Shown: positions 1 through 7,456 of the stretch, one piece after another
Layout: each line of letters begins with the position of its first letter
Numbering within the stretch: the stretch's first letter is position 1
Origin: Chloroflexota bacterium
GTDB lineage: Bacteria; Chloroflexota; Ktedonobacteria; Ktedonobacterales; Ktedonobacteraceae
Assembly: GCA_005881995.1 (NCBI GenBank)
Contig: VBHV01000240.1
Location: 1-7,456 of the forward strand
Reading direction: 5' to 3'
DNA: 7,456 nt
Made by a program: the position numbers and the translations under genes
The notes under the pieces: generated by a model
The model's database searches: none
Told to the model about the DNA's origin: nothing
The model's input: only the letters and a program-made list of their open reading frames with translations

Positions 1-555
1 AACATCAGTCGTGTTGAGACATCACACGGTTGGTGGGGAAATTGCTGCACAGGGGATCACAGCACGCACAACACAGGATCAGTTCCATTGCTGTCTCCTT
101 GGGGTCCACCACCGATCACGGCCAATTCGACCGCAATCGAGTGGTATTTGTTTAACCAGATCAACCACGATCGGGCGGTCCGTGGTCTGTATCTCTATAA
201 CTGGAACCCTACATTAGCCAATGGTGCGCGTCTCCATAGTTGGAATATGGCCAATTGCGGGTTCAGTCACTTCTGCCCCGATGGGGATTACCACTTTGGA
301 TGCATGCGTATCACGTATGAATTCCCTCACAACAATGATTGTGGCGAGTGCATCTCTGCTACATTGAGTAATGGGACACTCGCGAACGAAGAATGGGCTA
401 TCGGGTCGATTCAAAAAGGCATGGTGAACGAGCCAGACAATCCAAATAGCTGGCATCGTATTCACCTCACTTCCCAAACGCTCCACAGTGTAGGAGTGGG
501 TGTGTATGTCTCACCAGGTGGTTGGGTCTACGCCACCGAAGATATGGTGAGTTGA
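1..555 (+). CDS. CAP/SCP (PR-1-like) domain secreted protein, 5' partial
   Basis: The frame is open from the first base with no ATG inside it, so the start lies upstream; 184 residues are visible. A TTG at 88 would be a possible internal start, but it leaves unexplained the open frame before it. The CAP domain begins with a helix FNQINHDRAVRGL, followed by WNPTLANGARLHSWNMANCG, the usual Ala-Arg-x-His-Ser signature with the conserved His. Next come CGECIS, in the place of the usual CGENI with Glu kept, and a C-terminal strand GVGVYVSPGGWVYATEDMV close to the stop, as is normal for CAP domains. Many cysteines (CC near the visible start, then C-G-F-S-H-F-C and C-G-E-C) suggest disulfides and export; the signal peptide would be upstream of the window. 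CAP proteins are secreted and mostly of unknown role; some bind lipids or act in stress or competition. The family call is firm, the function is not known. Confidence 0.82.
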   Translation, partial: NISRVETSHGWWGNCCTGDHSTHNTGSVPLLSPWGPPPITANSTAIEWYLFNQINHDRAVRGLYLYNWNPTLANGARLHSWNMANCGFSHFCPDGDYHFGCMRITYEFPHNNDCGECISATLSNGTLANEEWAIGSIQKGMVNEPDNPNSWHRIHLTSQTLHSVGVGVYVSPGGWVYATEDMVS

Positions 556-851: not shown

Positions 852-2456
852 TTATACTTCTGATCGTTCTCTATGTCCGGCTATGGCGCTGTAGAGCTTG
901 AGCAGAATGGGCAGCAGGACCAGCCCGCAAATGAGCTCGATCAGGGTAAAAAGCAGGAAATTCAGTGCCGCGCTTTGAACATTTACTGAATAGACCCAGA
1001 TACTACTGCAATCGGCGAAGCCTTCGCCAACGATTACTCCAAGCACGGCGAAGAGTACTGCGGTTGCAACGGCTCTAAACCTATCGTAATGTGCCCTTGT
1101 TCTAAGCAGGGCAAAACCGGCAATCAGGCCGGTTAAACCAAGCCCCAGGCCATTGCTCCATAATCCGGGACTTCCACTGAGCGAATGGCCGAGCAAATAG
1201 CCTCCCATGCCGGTAAAGAAGCCTGCGAATGGACCAAAAACGGCCCCGAAAAAGAGCGGAACTATGATGGAGAGTCCGAAGAGGGCGTAACTAGCAAATT
1301 CCTTGTTATGGAAAAATAGGGTGCTGATATAGAAGTAGACGCCGCCATAGATGACGATACCGATGATTGATGCCATGAGTTGACGCGCTGTGCTTGTTCC
1401 GGATCTGCCGGGGGCGCGAGGTATGGCTCTCTCTTGAGGTGGTCTTACACTCGACCTCTTAGAAGCCGGGCGTTCTTTCTGGGTTGCTGTTTCCATCACC
1501 AATTGTTGTGGCGCCGTACTAGTTTGTGAAGTATTTGCAAGCGCAGGCGAAGGGAGAACCAGTGCTGGTCTAGTAGGAGGATATGAGGGTGACGAAACGG
1601 GATATAGCCCTCGCGTGGGTTCCTGTTGTCCTTGCTGACCCTGTTGGGATCGGTTAGCCTGCTCCAAAGCATTCGCGAACGCCTGTACGCTGGCAAAGCG
1701 CTCGTGCGGATCTTTGGCAAGCGCCATCATCACTGCTGCCTCGACATCTGGTGAGATATCGGGGTTCCTGGCGTGCAGTGAAGGAGGGGGAGCGCTCATC
1801 TGTTGGGCAATAAGCTCGGTTAAAGATCCTGAAAATGGACGCTGCCCGCTCAACCATTCATAGACGACAATGCCAAGCGCGTATTGATCGCTGGCTGGGC
1901 GCGGTTTACCATCGATTTGTTCAGGCGCCATATAGGCAATGGTGCCCACTGTATCCTGCGTGCTCTGTGAATTTGAACTTTGGGCAACCAGGGCCGTCCC
2001 AAAATCGCTTAGTAAGATTTCACCTTGCCTTCCAATTAACATATTGCCAGGCTTTACATCACGATGGATAAAATTGTGATCATGGGCATATTGTAGCGCT
2101 AAAGCTACCTGCTTGACGTATTCTACAATCGTTGCCAGGGGCAAACGAGTGCCATTGGGATGGCGCTCGCGCAGGGTTCCCTGCGGGGCATAGTCCATGA
2201 CCAGAAACGGGAGACCGTTCTGCACACCGAAATCCAGAACGCGAATGATATGTGGGTGTACCAGGTGGGCGATGGTGCGCGCTTCATGCAGGAAGTGATC
2301 TTTTTCATCATCTTCAAGCTGCATTTGGAGTACTTTGATAGCTGCCTGTGTTTTTAGATAGATGTGTTCACCAAGGTAGACATTAGAAAACCCACCTCGT
2401 CCCAGTAGTCGAACGAGATAATAATTGCCTAGTTGTTGCCCTACACTGTCGTACAT
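852..2456 (-). CDS. Ser/Thr protein kinase fused to a C-terminal ECF transporter S-component-like membrane domain
   Basis: This 534-aa protein has three parts. Residues 12-265 are a Hanks-type kinase with all the key residues: Gly-rich loop GRGGFSNVYLG (19-29), ATP Lys41 in AAIKVL, helix-C Glu58, HRDVKPGN (131-138), DFG (151-153) and APE (177-179). It should be active. Residues 266-355 are a Q/P/S/T-rich, probably disordered linker. Residues 359-534 hold about six hydrophobic helices that match ECF S components. The segment PLFFGAVFGP (400-409) is identical in the S protein encoded at 5693-6268, and a hand alignment of 400-519 gives about 54 identities in 120 gap-free columns. One change is His424 where both paralogues have Asp (G-D). 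The kinase would be cytoplasmic, as S components have N-in topology. ATG at 2456 follows AGGAAG by 10 nt. It may be read through from the S gene 153 bp upstream. The fusion is clear in one uninterrupted frame; its substrate is unknown. Confidence 0.93.
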   Translation of the reverse strand: MYDSVGQQLGNYYLVRLLGRGGFSNVYLGEHIYLKTQAAIKVLQMQLEDDEKDHFLHEARTIAHLVHPHIIRVLDFGVQNGLPFLVMDYAPQGTLRERHPNGTRLPLATIVEYVKQVALALQYAHDHNFIHRDVKPGNMLIGRQGEILLSDFGTALVAQSSNSQSTQDTVGTIAYMAPEQIDGKPRPASDQYALGIVVYEWLSGQRPFSGSLTELIAQQMSAPPPSLHARNPDISPDVEAAVMMALAKDPHERFASVQAFANALEQANRSQQGQQGQQEPTRGLYPVSSPSYPPTRPALVLPSPALANTSQTSTAPQQLVMETATQKERPASKRSSVRPPQERAIPRAPGRSGTSTARQLMASIIGIVIYGGVYFYISTLFFHNKEFASYALFGLSIIVPLFFGAVFGPFAGFFTGMGGYLLGHSLSGSPGLWSNGLGLGLTGLIAGFALLRTRAHYDRFRAVATAVLFAVLGVIVGEGFADCSSIWVYSVNVQSAALNFLLFTLIELICGLVLLPILLKLYSAIAGHRERSEV

Positions 2457-2609: not shown

Positions 2610-3302
2610 CTAGGCGCGTCCTTTGCTCCAGACGATCGCATCGCCGATAAACAGCAACAACGGCAGCATCACCAGCGCGAAGAGCAAATTCGGCAAGGTA
2701 GTATCGAGGAATGCCATCGTGGCCTCTGTCGCCCTATAATACGGGGAGTGATACACCAGCACCGCGCTATACACTACGATAGCAATACCGAGAGCAACTC
2801 CGGCAGCAGTGATAACACCAACGGTAGCCAGCGACTCGAAGTTATTGTAACGCCGACGGGTAAGAATCTGCGTCAAGCCCGCAACCAGGCCGATCATGCC
2901 ATTAGCAAGGTAGCCAGTAAAGCCATTCCACCCGATCAGATCCCGGAAGTTAATCAACGCGCTGCCATAAAAGAGGTAGCCGTTACCCCAACTGAGGTCG
3001 TGCAGCCATAGGTTAGCAACATAGTCGCCCAGCAGGAAGCCAAATCCCCCGGTAATCAGACCAACCCAGGGACCATAAATTACCCCAAAGAGCAGCGGAA
3101 TCAGCAGCGCAGGCAGGAACACATCCAGCGTCCCCGTTGGAACGAGGATGATGAGGTTGACATGACTCAAGAGGCCGTACAGGATTATGCCCAGGATGGC
3201 GGCGACTACCTGGGGTAAGCCGACAAACCAGATGCTTACCGGCTCGGGGTTCCGGCTGTTGTCGACGGGACTACTCTGCTGGCTCGGCGCTCTTCTCTGC
3301 AT
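2610..3302 (-). CDS. ECF transporter S-component-like membrane protein with an inserted loop
   Basis: This is a 230-aa integral membrane protein with about six hydrophobic segments after a polar N-terminus of some 25 residues. It has the S-domain block PALLIPLLFGVIYGPWVGLITGG...LLGD (residues 64-93), with the same Pro-to-Asp spacing of 24 as the S protein at 5693-6268. It also has GMIGLVAGL, an arginine-rich turn RRRYN and a final helix with MLPLLL, matching LLPILL in its paralogues. Between GD (92-93) and the VAGL motif it is 26 residues longer than either paralogue, with an aromatic and glycine-rich insert. ATG at 3302 follows AAAGGG by 7 nt. S components are the substrate-binding subunits of ECF vitamin and metal importers. 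No A or T gene is adjacent in its own cluster, so it probably borrows them from the cassette at 4700-7456. The ligand cannot be told. Confidence 0.8.
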   Translation of the reverse strand: MQRRAPSQQSSPVDNSRNPEPVSIWFVGLPQVVAAILGIILYGLLSHVNLIILVPTGTLDVFLPALLIPLLFGVIYGPWVGLITGGFGFLLGDYVANLWLHDLSWGNGYLFYGSALINFRDLIGWNGFTGYLANGMIGLVAGLTQILTRRRYNNFESLATVGVITAAGVALGIAIVVYSAVLVYHSPYYRATEATMAFLDTTLPNLLFALVMLPLLLFIGDAIVWSKGRA

Positions 3303-3455: not shown

Positions 3456-3758
3456 TCACTTTGGCTGGAGATTGTGGGATACTTCAGGGTGAATTAACGG
3501 ATACAGGTTAATGGTCCAGCCGATGCCAAATGCCTGCGGCACCAGGATCTGCGAAGTATTTTTATTCCAGAACGTGGCACGTAGGCGTTCAGTCGTTGGC
3601 GGTCGAAAGTCATAGGGGATCCTGCCCGCGATCCGGCCATGCCAGGTGCGTTCTTCAGGTGGCAGGCGCAGTTGCTCACGAAGAGCTAACCCAACAAGTA
3701 ATGTGAGCACCAGGCTCCACATAATATTCTTGGGCTTGAAGATCTTTTTGCGTCGCAT
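3456..3758 (-). CDS. Small single-helix membrane protein with DUF5808-like C-terminus
   Basis: This 100-aa protein has a basic N-terminus (MRRKKIFKPKN), one transmembrane helix (about residues 12-27, IMWSLVLTLLVGLAL), then a soluble region. That region contains IPYDFRPPTTERLRATFWN and LVPQAFGIGWTINLYPL. This pattern, R-P-P-T, a W-N, L-x-P-x-x-F-G-x-G-W-x-I-N, is what I recall for DUF5808 domains, whose role is unknown. The start at 3758 is chosen because AAGGAG lies 9 nt upstream; the upstream in-frame ATGs at 3776 and 3854 lack such a site, and 3854 would add a polar stretch before the helix. It points away from the lipoprotein gene across a shared 290-bp region. It lies upstream of the second S gene on the same strand, but the hairpin between them may separate them. 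Confidence 0.68.
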   Translation of the reverse strand: MRRKKIFKPKNIMWSLVLTLLVGLALREQLRLPPEERTWHGRIAGRIPYDFRPPTTERLRATFWNKNTSQILVPQAFGIGWTINLYPLIHPEVSHNLQPK

Positions 3759-3767
3759 AGTTTCCTT

Positions 3768-3773
3768 CTCCTT
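3768..3773 (-). promoter_or_regulatory. Ribosome binding site that fixes the start at 3758
   Basis: AAGGAG on the minus strand is followed by 9 nt and the ATG at 3758, with a second GGA inside the spacer. The in-frame ATG at 3776 overlaps this purine tract and has none of its own, so it is unlikely to be the start. Confidence 0.6.
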
Positions 3774-3871
3774 CATTGTAAAGAATAGCACAGTTCTCGT
3801 GTGCTCTGCTGCACGCCTCTTATCAGCTGTGAGGGAGTTGTCAATCGTCCACACAACATTAAGATAGGCCC

Positions 3872-4699: not shown

Positions 4700-5605
4700 T
4701 CAAAAGCCAGGAATACCCTGAACGTGCAACACGTGTAGGAAGCCGCTGCCGTAGTAATTGCCGAGGATGTTGAGGAGTGTGATGGCAAAGAAACCAGTAA
4801 TACTCAAGGTAATAATGACGCGATCAATGGGTCTTGCGTGTAATTCGGTAATCCATGTGCGTTTCCCCACACCAAAACAGCGCAGTTCCATTGCACTGAT
4901 GATATCCTCCGCGCCAACAATCGAGCCGATCACTACGGGCACAATCATGGGAGCCAGGCGAGCAATCTTAGCGAATGTTCCACCTCGCAGCTTATCAATC
5001 TCGAAGCCGCGAGCGCGCTGGGCATCGAGTGTTGTGCCGAAATCGCGTGCGACGCTTGGCAAGAAGCGAAATGAGAGATCAACGGCGTAGGCGAACTTAT
5101 CTGGCAAGCCCATACCTTTAAAAGCTATCCCTATATCACCTGGATTAGTGGTGTAAGGTATGGCGACAGCAAGCAGAGCAATACTGAAATTGCGCAGGCC
5201 TTGTGTGATCATGAAGGTGACGCTCTCAACACTGATGAGTAATGGGGCAGGGCCGATAAAAGGAGGCTGCCGCTTGAGACCCAGAAATGGCAAGTTGTAG
5301 AGGACATGTTGATGAGCAGGAAGATCTACACCCTGAACGACGGCACCACCTGAAAGGAAATAGTTGACGAAAATAATCATAACATTGAGCGCGATGATGA
5401 GATACCATGCGCGCCTTGTTTCTCTCCATTTAAGGTGAGCCTGGCTATAGTAATAGGATGCGCCGATAAAGCCTGCTAGAATAACCCAGAAGTTTGATGT
5501 CTGTGCTACTGCGAAGCCATAAGCAAACAGCAAAACAAACTTGGCACGAGTATCCAGGCGGTGAATAGGCGAATCACGCTTGATATAAGGGAAGTTGATG
5601 AGCAT
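4700..5605 (-). CDS. ecfT: ECF transporter transmembrane (T) component, EcfT
   Basis: EcfT is the membrane scaffold that couples the ATPase pair to the S subunit in ECF importers. This version has 301 aa from the ATG at 5605. The N-terminal signature FPYIKRDSPIHRLDTRAKF (residues 5-23) is followed by hydrophobic helices. The central cytoplasmic region carries the two coupling motifs: AQRARGFE with the classic Ala-Arg-Gly (198-200), and AMELRCFGVGKRT (238-250). In the second, Leu-Arg-Cys stands where Ala-Arg-Gly is common. A last helix closes the protein. An in-frame ATG at 5653 would add 16 polar residues; it has GAGG 10 nt upstream, while 5605 has only GAGAGA 6 nt upstream. I prefer 5605 because family members begin close to the FPY motif. 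It lies 87 bp after the S gene and is probably in one operon with it and the ATPase. Confidence 0.88.
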   Translation of the reverse strand: MLINFPYIKRDSPIHRLDTRAKFVLLFAYGFAVAQTSNFWVILAGFIGASYYYSQAHLKWRETRRAWYLIIALNVMIIFVNYFLSGGAVVQGVDLPAHQHVLYNLPFLGLKRQPPFIGPAPLLISVESVTFMITQGLRNFSIALLAVAIPYTTNPGDIGIAFKGMGLPDKFAYAVDLSFRFLPSVARDFGTTLDAQRARGFEIDKLRGGTFAKIARLAPMIVPVVIGSIVGAEDIISAMELRCFGVGKRTWITELHARPIDRVIITLSITGFFAITLLNILGNYYGSGFLHVLHVQGIPGF

Positions 5606-5692
5606 AAAATGTCTCTCGCGATCGTCATGAACTGCTCCGGCGAGGAGCACCATGTTAATGCGGCCTCGCCAGAGCAGGTTCCACTTACAATG

Positions 5693-6268
5693 CTAACCAC
5701 GTCCCATGCGTCTCGTCGCCGCATTGTAGGCTACGAGCAGGATAGGGAGCAGGATGACGCCGTTCACAAGATCAGAAACCGTTGCAGGGACAAAGTTCCC
5801 AGTTGCGGCTGCCACATCGTACTTTGAAACCCAGATGTCGCTATAGGCAGCGAAGCCTATCCCAACAAGTATTCCAACGATACCGAAAATCTCTGCTGGA
5901 AGGATATTGGCTACCTTGTTGTAGCGTCCCCAGGTTATGTACATAGCAAGGCCAGCTACGAAACCTATCAGAGCATTACCCAGGTCCCAGTTCCAGTAAA
6001 CGCCGTAGCCGGAGATGTAGTCGCCTAAGAAGTTGCCGATTCCTCCTGTGAAGAGGCCGACCAGGGGGCCAAAGACAGCCCCGAAGAATAAAGGAATGAC
6101 TATAGCCGGACGAAACGAAACATTGCTAGTAGCAGGTAACTGCAAGACGTTGGTGAGGTAACTCAAGCCGCCGTACAGCGCGGCTCCCAGCGCCATAAAC
6201 ACGACCTGGCGAACGCCAATGCCCCAGATTCTTGAGGCGGAACGTTCTTCATGCCTTGTTACTGCCAT
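5693..6268 (-). CDS. ECF transporter S component (substrate-binding membrane subunit)
   Basis: This 191-aa six-helix protein binds the substrate of an ECF importer. Helix 1 reads VVFMALGAALYGGLSYL and contains Ala26-x-x-x-Ala30, the helix-1 motif known to pack on EcfT. It continues with RPAIVIPLFFGAVFGPLVGLFTGG...LGD (53-83), WNWDLGNALIGFVAGL (92-107) and LLPILL (173-178). From memory the pattern resembles UPF0397/DUF1393-type S components, whose ligands are mostly uncertain. The start at 6268 is chosen because AGAAAGGA lies 9 nt upstream and the sequence after it (MAVTRHEERSASR) leads into helix 1. A longer reading from 6427 would overlap the ATPase gene and add 53 non-conserved residues. 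Gene order ATPase, S, T on one strand is that of a dedicated ECF cassette. Confidence 0.88.
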   Translation of the reverse strand: MAVTRHEERSASRIWGIGVRQVVFMALGAALYGGLSYLTNVLQLPATSNVSFRPAIVIPLFFGAVFGPLVGLFTGGIGNFLGDYISGYGVYWNWDLGNALIGFVAGLAMYITWGRYNKVANILPAEIFGIVGILVGIGFAAYSDIWVSKYDVAAATGNFVPATVSDLVNGVILLPILLVAYNAATRRMGRG

Positions 6269-6277
6269 GTGTTGAAA

Positions 6278-6285
6278 TCCTTTCT
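6278..6285 (-). promoter_or_regulatory. Ribosome binding site that fixes the S-component start
   Basis: AGAAAGGA on the minus strand lies 9 nt before the ATG at 6268. This decides for a start at 6268 over the in-frame ATG at 6358 and the more distant one at 6427. Confidence 0.6.
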
Positions 6286-6340
6286 GTGAGTGAACAGATG
6301 TAGGGATGAACGAACGAGTAAGGTAGATTTGTGTGCTAAA

Positions 6341-6350
6341 CACCTCCTTT
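6341..6350 (-). promoter_or_regulatory. Perfect Shine-Dalgarno-like AAAGGAGGTG without an obvious start
   Basis: The minus strand carries AAAGGAGGTG 13 nt after the ATPase stop. No ATG, GTG or TTG follows within 15 nt except the GTG inside the motif itself. The S gene has its own site 56 nt further on. It might be a remnant of a longer S protein, a ribosome standby site, or part of a leader structure. Confidence 0.3.
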
Positions 6351-6351
6351 C

Positions 6352-6372
6352 GTCGCATCTTGTCTATGCGAC
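6352..6372 (-). repeat. 7-bp hairpin overlapping the ATPase stop codon
   Basis: GTCGCAT and ATGCGAC (6352-6358 and 6366-6372) are perfect complements around a 7-nt loop. The hairpin includes the TAG of the ATPase gene and directly precedes the AAAGGAGGTG motif. It has no U-run, so it is more likely an mRNA processing or coupling element than a terminator. Confidence 0.4.
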
Positions 6373-7456
6373 AGCGTTCTGTTCGGCAAGTAAGTAGTGC
6401 AGCAAAGAGGTAGGGCGCAGGTTGCACTCCTCCAACCTTGTTGGATCGGCGAGTACCTGCAATGGCGGTCCATCTCCTACCAGGTTGCCTTCTTTCAAGA
6501 GTAAGACTCGCTGCGTGAAGCGCAGGGCAAGATCGAGATCATGCGTGATGATCAGCAGGGCATCGAGTTCAGGCAGACTGCGCAAGTATTCCATAAAGGA
6601 AATGTAGGAACGATAATCCTGCCCCGCTGTGGGCTCATCGAGCAGCAAGATTTTGCCTTGCATCGACAGCACCGAGGCGATAGCCACGCGCTTCTGCTGC
6701 CCAAAGCTCAACGAAAAAGGCGAACGTTTATCAAATGGCGCGATATTCAATGCCTCTTCCGCCTGCTCTACGGCAGCTTTTATGCGTTCAGGGGCGAAGC
6801 GCAGGTTTTCTGGCCCAAAACTGATCTCTTTGCGTACCGAGGGCGCGAATAACATGGCGCTGGGACTCTGAAAGACGTACCCGATACGCGAAGCCAGCTG
6901 TGCCACGCTCAAATTGCGTGTGTCTTCTCCAAAAAGACGTACGGTGCCTTTGGTGGGGCGCAGCAAACCCAGCGCCTGTTTGACCAGCGTTGTCTTGCCG
7001 GAACCGTTGGGCCCAAGCAGCGCGACGGTCTCTCCCCGGTATAACTGGCAGGATATGCCGTGCAGAATTTCTTCCGAGAATGACCCGTAGCGGTAATGCA
7101 CGTTCACAAATGTCAGAATTGGCTCATGTGTGGCTGCATGCTGTTTTTGCGCGGTCATGATGGGTTGTACCAGCAGCGTTTTTGCATGGGCAGGATCGTT
7201 GAGCGTGCGCAGGGTAGACTGGATGGGCAGCTTGACCTGGGTGGGATCGGCAATGGTGAGAAATTCCTCTCTGTCGCCAAAGAAGACCTGGCATCCATCA
7301 CGCATGAGCAAGACCTTATCTGGTTGGAGGCGCAGCGCCTCCTCGACGCGGTGCTCGACGATAATCACGGTGCTGCCTTTTGCCAGTAAGCCGGTGATAA
7401 GTTCCTCTAATTCGTCTACCGCTCGTGAGTCCAGGTTCGCGAACGGCTCATCGAAC
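6364..7456 (-). CDS. ecfA: ECF transporter fused double ATPase (EcfA-A'), 5' partial
   Basis: The ATPase powers ECF uptake by hydrolysing ATP on the cytoplasmic face of EcfT. The frame runs to the window edge, so the N-terminal half is missing; 363 residues are visible. The first 35 belong to ABC domain 1: Walker B end FDEP, D-loop ANLDSRA and H-loop VEHR, then about 75 residues of tail and linker. Domain 2 is complete: FVNVHYRYG, Walker A GPNGSGKTT (visible 148-156), Q-loop YVFQSP, ISFGPENL, signature LSFGQQKR (about 249-256), Walker B LLLDEP (270-275), D-loop AGQD and H-loop ITHD. ISFGPENL and LSFGQ are typical of the ECF/CbiO ATPase branch rather than of other importers. One chain carrying both domains replaces separate EcfA1 and EcfA2. 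It is first in the A-S-T cassette, 95 bp before the S gene. Confidence 0.92.
   Translation of the reverse strand, partial: FDEPFANLDSRAVDELEELITGLLAKGSTVIIVEHRVEEALRLQPDKVLLMRDGCQVFFGDREEFLTIADPTQVKLPIQSTLRTLNDPAHAKTLLVQPIMTAQKQHAATHEPILTFVNVHYRYGSFSEEILHGISCQLYRGETVALLGPNGSGKTTLVKQALGLLRPTKGTVRLFGEDTRNLSVAQLASRIGYVFQSPSAMLFAPSVRKEISFGPENLRFAPERIKAAVEQAEEALNIAPFDKRSPFSLSFGQQKRVAIASVLSMQGKILLLDEPTAGQDYRSYISFMEYLRSLPELDALLIITHDLDLALRFTQRVLLLKEGNLVGDGPPLQVLADPTRLEECNLRPTSLLHYLLAEQNAVA

Follow-up and report, generated by a model that had tools for sequence, protein, structure and literature searches.

Fusions of a Hanks-type Ser/Thr kinase with an ECF S-component domain: a family of probable receptor kinases

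In this work we describe a bacterial gene that joins a Hanks-type Ser/Thr kinase to a six-helix membrane domain of the ECF S-component type, and we put at roughly two in three the probability that its product is a receptor Ser/Thr kinase, in which the C-terminal domain, derived from an S-component, would now serve as a sensor without docking or import. The gene (852..2456, minus strand) encodes a protein of 534 residues and lies in a stretch of DNA of 7,456 nucleotides, referred to here as the window, from a bacterium probably belonging to the Ktedonobacteria. The initial annotation had read a kinase and an S-component-like domain in one open frame; matches to PF00069 (163.1 bits) and PF07155 (37.3 bits) confirmed this, and the window protein proved to be one of 45 distinct proteins of the same architecture.

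The kinase domain (residues 14-260; 1677..2417, minus strand) carries the beta3 lysine, the alphaC glutamate and the HRD and DFG motifs, the residues present being K41, E58, R132-D133, N138, D151-F152-G153 and T166. Across the fused proteins, D133 is found in 45/45 and K41, E58, N138 and D151 each in 44/45, the exceptions being P0011, which is without the stretch from the catalytic loop to DFG, and the frame L087, which is without the start of the N-lobe. When the full-length model was compared with a viral library using Foldseek, the 50 matches listed were mainly viral protein kinases, an uninformative result. The kinase is followed by a disordered linker of about 77 residues (residues 277-353; 1398..1628, minus strand; the full-length model has pLDDT below 50 at 277-329 and 331-353), rich in Pro, Ser, Thr, Arg and Gln over the examined residues 277-354. 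The S domain ends the chain, and the N-terminal kinase is the only output domain found. A possible zinc ribbon ahead of the kinase was noted in L042:6380-8155 (minus strand; 24.1 bits, just under the cut-off of 25) and, from precomputed Pfam matches, in P0146. The order of parts recalls PASTA and other transmembrane Hanks kinases such as PknB and StkP, in which an N-terminal cytoplasmic kinase is followed by a linker and a membrane part, with one membrane helix and a sensor outside; the fusion shares this layout, but sensing would fall to its six-helix bundle. The window fusion scored 260.2 bits against the PASTA kinase equivalog NF033483, below its cut-off of 450, and no PASTA family is among the Pfam matches listed for it with E up to 10.

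Residues 355-534 (855..1394, minus strand) form the S-component domain, with six transmembrane helices and a PF07155 score above the curated cut-off of 26.7. The predicted structure of this domain (pLDDT 94.9) has the six-helix S fold and matches ECF S-components in the PDB; on this point, structure prediction and profile agree with the assignment of the initial annotation. Of 18 other fused proteins scanned, 5 reached the cut-off and 13 fell below it, and a profile built from nine divergent rows, of which eight are fused and one is a lone S-like protein, matched the cassette-S profile with 98.9% probability. The cassette-S profile, searched against PDB sequences, gave no matches at E <= 0.01. 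In a PDB search with alignment A3, all of the best 60 of 2862 matches were kinases, a result that is uninformative on the S domain because this alignment contained full-length fusions.

The kinase-S fusions are, on sequence evidence, a family and not an accident. A first search of 5.8 billion proteins, using words from the S part, retrieved 14 kinase-S proteins including the query, and a second search with a different fused query retrieved 13, of which 12 were new (one being the query itself) and one was P0010 again. Twenty fused genes, each matched by both kinase and S profiles, were found across 15 of the 47 genomes that represent the class of Tengunoibacter tsumagoiensis (G001), after large frames had been picked by S-domain profiles; we take this class to be the Ktedonobacteria. 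The initial annotation had proposed a protein-database search for the kinase plus ECF S architecture and had allowed for two genes joined by a sequencing error; the 45 fusions are all distinct, with no sequence equal to or part of another, and they bear out the former and rule out a sequencing or assembly artefact. Among the names they bear in databases are 'protein kinase [Ktedonobacteraceae bacterium]' and 'serine/threonine protein kinase/uncharacterized membrane protein'. The genomic fusions were obtained by profile search of the genomes and not by a contig scan with the core S alignment, which gave 11 loci; the six of these that were inspected (L001, L002, L003, L004, L009 and L010) are all unfused S genes in ECF cassettes. 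Seven large PF07155 frames outside the fused set (L054-L060), one of which is the S-HAMP protein discussed below, gave no kinase-profile match, and a weak match at G030:C1:508894 (L035, L066) was dropped, as neither the kinase nor the S profile matched.

Fused genes were also observed in tandem. At L049:5203-8929 (G035), two kinase-S genes are identical over their first 45 residues and clearly different in their S domains, as if the sensor had diversified after duplication, while at L045:8177-11928 (G024) two different kinase-S genes follow an ECF cassette. The longest contig listed is 5415 bases for P0005 and also for P0140; as these two represent the two types, the tandem pair may recur elsewhere.

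A key feature separating fused from unfused S domains is the AxxxA motif of helix 1, which docks S-components on EcfT (Partipilo and Slotboom, PMC11109136). Where the S-component of a functional ECF transporter would have AxxxA, motif comparison places I364-xxx-V368 in the window fusion (1353..1367, minus strand). Among 156 unfused rows, in which L001 and L022 are the same locus, L016 and L017 are near-copies, and 120 P rows are the best-listed of 557 matches to one query and hence biased to close relatives, AxxxA is found in 151 and GxxxA in 2; the three exceptions are the second S-like protein of the window (2610-3302), an S-like protein beside a fused gene (L051, G035) and the S-HAMP protein (L055, G057). 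The fused rows number 46 for 45 distinct proteins (L045 KS2 is the same protein as P0135), and only P0010 and P0011 have AxxxA (2/46); P0136 has SxxxA, L044 has AxxxL, and the second alanine is kept in many. As a control, 20 distant unfused loci were compared, of which the 12 usable with the local S profile gave AxxxA in 10 and GxxxA in 2; the other eight were dropped for a weak match (L069, L071, L079) or no match (L070, L072, L073, L074, L076), so that the motif counts stop short of the most distant PF07155 proteins. Nor are these counts independent events, because as few as about three changes on an 88-row tree suffice for loss of the motif and an independent-pairs test of fusion versus loss (2 pairs when only well-supported branches are used, 5 with every branch) has no power; there may have been one old loss with few repeats. 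Taken by its motifs, the S domain of the fusions seems to have left the transporter.

Candidate pocket residues were examined within the clade of the window gene, which holds 10 proteins (support 100/99) and in which H424, N435, E478, D482, S485, N499 and E507 are invariant (10/10). At the positions of H424 and N435, unfused S rows carry Asp (155/156) and Trp (154/156), respectively; a first comparison set held 151 unfused rows, without L051, L055, L067, L068 and the second S of the window, and these two columns were repeated on the 156. A further group, KS2 (P0135-P0144), keeps the Asp and Trp in 10/10 members despite an altered first docking position in all ten (nine to I, L or V, one to Ser). 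Across all fused rows the pair is kept together in 18/46 only, and divergent fused members retain few pocket residues. Conserved polar residues account for 7/20 in the outer half versus 3/10 in the inner half in the window clade, and for 8/19 versus 4/10 in KS2; neither group shows an outer-half enrichment beyond the general polar excess there, and in KS2 the inner half is more conserved than the outer (0.83 versus 0.76). The clade-fixed polar residues and the KS2 pattern fit a binding site that could have been kept or re-tuned after docking was lost, and we regard the case for a ligand pocket as suggestive.

The genomic context of the fusion includes an ECF cassette, the order in the window being EcfA (cut), S, EcfT, a lipoprotein-like gene of opposite orientation, a short gene with a DUF5808 match, an S-like gene and the fusion. 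The EcfA ATPase (6364..7455, minus strand; PF00005, 108.9 bits) is cut by the window edge and scores 233.2 bits against ECF_ATPase_2, below the equivalog cut-off of 330. The cassette S-component (5693..6268, minus strand, start taken at ATG 6268) has an intact AxxxA, matches PF07155 with 91.0 bits on the longer frame 5693-6427 and has 557 homologs at E <= 0.001; EcfT, of the CbiQ family (4700..5605, minus strand, start inferred at an inner ATG from homologs), matches PF02361 with 66.5 bits on frame 4700-5653. Between the cassette and the S-like gene lies the small protein with a DUF5808 match (3456-3854, minus strand; 28.6 bits, cut-off 26.3). The S-like protein itself, without a kinase and directly upstream of the fusion (2610..3302, minus strand, 230 residues), matches the local S profile with 139 bits and PF07155 with 24.7 bits, under the cut-off of 26.7, and has IxxxI in place of AxxxA; its best match in the 47 genomes is a kinase-S protein of G047 (34% across residues 30-220 of the query). 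In G035 (L051, 6922-7479), another lone gene of this S-like kind lies 88 bp ahead of a fused gene, and such a protein could possibly be a partner or a decoy receptor. At the other end of the window, a 5'-open frame (1-555, plus strand) with a CAP/SCP domain (PF00188, 40.4 bits) is convergent with the fusion gene. Rfam was searched for a riboswitch that might give a clue to the ligand, and there were no matches at gathering score in seven sources (the window, L045, L044, L049, L051, L002 and L004).

Fused genes also occur in genomes in which no such cassette was found. Window-type EcfT is missing from 7 of the 15 fusion-carrying genomes (G026, G028, G029, G030, G031, G045 and G047; best EcfT match 25.8-43.7 bits), some cassette-less genomes being drafts in which absence is not proof, and profile A5 found no unfused S in these seven; the fused genes of G028, G029 and G030 sit in contigs of 6.1, 6.0 and 8.9 Mb. 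In G045, a distant EcfT match has, about 2.2 kb away, a weak unfused PF07155 frame of 207 residues (25.8 bits, below the cut-off); the two probably belong to an ECF cassette of another kind. The order in G024 is EcfA-S-EcfT-fusion-fusion, with the first fusion beginning 95 bp past EcfT, whereas G026 has one fused gene and no cassette between what appear, by eye and from first residues, to be the same flanks.

Adjacency to a cassette in the window and in G024 would be needless for a free receptor, and the fusion could instead belong to the nearby ECF transporter as a functional or regulatory component, docking on EcfT while its kinase phosphorylates the ATPases. AxxxA in P0010 and P0011 and SxxxA in P0136 also speak for this and against a receptor, and because a CbiQ-family EcfT was found in 12/12 fusion-carrying genomes searched, some other EcfT could be the partner. 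We nevertheless judge such a role improbable, given IxxxV in the window fusion where docking requires AxxxA, the seven genomes without window-type EcfT, and the G026 gene that stands alone between the apparent neighbours of its G024 counterpart. The suggestion of the initial annotation that the kinase phosphorylates its own ECF module is weakened by the loss of the docking motif and the cassette-less genomes, even though the window gene and its G024 ortholog adjoin a cassette.

A different objection is that the S-like domain merely anchors the kinase in the membrane and senses nothing. The few pocket residues of divergent members, the 13/18 proteins below the PF07155 cut-off and a polar conservation without outer-half bias beyond composition would all suit an anchor, as the low count of the Asp and Trp pair weighs against a receptor; yet a domain that does nothing but anchor would seldom have to conserve a six-helix fold, and neither the invariant polar residues within the bundle of the window clade nor the Asp and Trp of KS2 would be expected of one, which leaves this explanation unlikely. 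Transport by the S domain alone, regulated by the kinase, has a parallel in solitary S-components reported to work without an ECF module, as for some BioY and BtuM (PMC11109136), but no sequence feature points to it and we consider it very improbable. The proposal of the initial annotation that a transporter subunit became a nutrient sensor fits the fused family, its kinase residues, the loss of the docking motif and the cassette-less genomes, and from these features the fusion is probably a nutrient-sensing receptor kinase.

For such a receptor kinase, we infer ligand binding, coupling, the direction of control and the presence of targets along the following lines. S-components bind substrate near the outer face and then topple onto EcfT (PMC11109136). 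The C-terminal domain of the fusion, whose ancestor would be the S-component that binds the vitamin in an ECF importer, would neither dock on EcfT nor import; it would keep the rearrangement on binding and hand it to the tethered N-terminal kinase, which the topology described for the S fold would place in the cytoplasm. A small outside molecule would bind the extracellular half of the S domain, the rearrangement would travel through helix 1 and the flexible linker, and the kinase would be altered, probably through dimerisation or substrate access, so that phosphorylation of its targets would change with the ligand signal.

Clues to the ligand come from PdxU and PdxU2/HmpT, which we take to be ECF S-components. 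According to PMC9997740, PF07155/COG4720 includes both as named B6-vitamer transporters, with the substrate verified for PdxU2/HmpT; they share the Pfam family of the fusion S domain without a fused kinase, and this shared family suggests a B6-vitamer or HMP-like ligand as a first guess.

The S-component fold has already been described as the sensor of histidine kinases, for which a receptor logic without docking has been argued (PMC11109136). Like the fusion, the 5TMR (5TM-5TMR_LYT, PF07694) histidine kinases YpdA, BtsS and KinB have an S-fold membrane sensor without the AxxxA of helix 1 and a cytoplasmic kinase output, which in the fusion is inferred; in these systems the sensor is preceded by an additional helix, H0, and followed C-terminally by a histidine kinase (PMC11109136), whereas the fusion has an N-terminal Ser/Thr kinase, no extra helix between linker and helix 1 in the full-length model, and a match to PF07155 and not to PF07694 at cut-offs (9.7 bits at full length and 13 bits for the S domain alone, cut-off 24.6). 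In the ammonium sensor Ks-Amt5, a transporter domain that reportedly 'binds but does not translocate' drives a kinase in the same chain, a similar re-use of a transporter domain as receptor that differs in joining an Amt transporter to a histidine kinase (PMC5764959). The nearest Ser/Thr precedent seen, in a 2005 architecture survey, is the group of kinases with solute-binding-protein domains of Streptomyces coelicolor and Nostoc, whose sensor likewise comes from the solute-binding part of an importer but is a periplasmic-type binding protein and not an integral membrane S-component (PMC1262709). In the titles and abstract openings of the papers listed by open-access literature searches, we found no description of an ECF S-component acting as the sensor of a Ser/Thr kinase, and neither 'serine' nor 'threonine' occurs in the main text of PMC11109136. 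The new receptor-kinase class envisaged in the initial annotation is plausible as a new type of sensor on Hanks-type kinases, while its principle was known from S-fold histidine kinases. A possible second receptor-like use of the S-component, judged by its domains, is the S-HAMP protein of another Chloroflexota genome (L055:3119-4825, plus strand; G057), in which an S-component with IxxxL in place of the docking motif is followed by HAMP and a coiled-looking tail; an oppositely oriented gene downstream of it was recognised by eye as a response regulator whose sequence resembles HD-GYP.

Furthermore, S domains were likely captured by kinases more than once. The fused versus unfused state needs at least 5 changes on the best tree, 2 of them forced by well-supported branches, while long branches and weak deep support limit the number of captures that can be read from it. 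P0010, P0011 and P0012 are placed with moderate support among unfused cassette S proteins, and the kinase of P0011 and P0012 is clearly different (31% identity with the window protein when aligned); these two observations make more than one capture likely. A broader reading, which we offer tentatively at a little short of even odds, is that ECF vitamin S-components gave rise to a whole class of receptor Ser/Thr kinases in Ktedonobacteria through several captures, some recent ones keeping the docking motif and one type having a different kinase, with sensors diversified to several ligands. Under that reading, the recent fusions would catch a transporter in the course of becoming a receptor, and this would be the first transceptor family with a Hanks-type kinase output known to us.

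For many bacterial Ser/Thr kinases, the signal is still to be found. Here the candidate sensor has a fold that is solved and a binding region that is known in relatives, and the likely ligands, vitamins and their precursors, are few; together these points make ligand control of a bacterial Ser/Thr kinase directly testable. The fusions with and without the docking motif provide a series for studying the loss of transport during receptor evolution, and the family would extend the idea of the S-component transceptor from histidine kinases to Hanks-type kinases.
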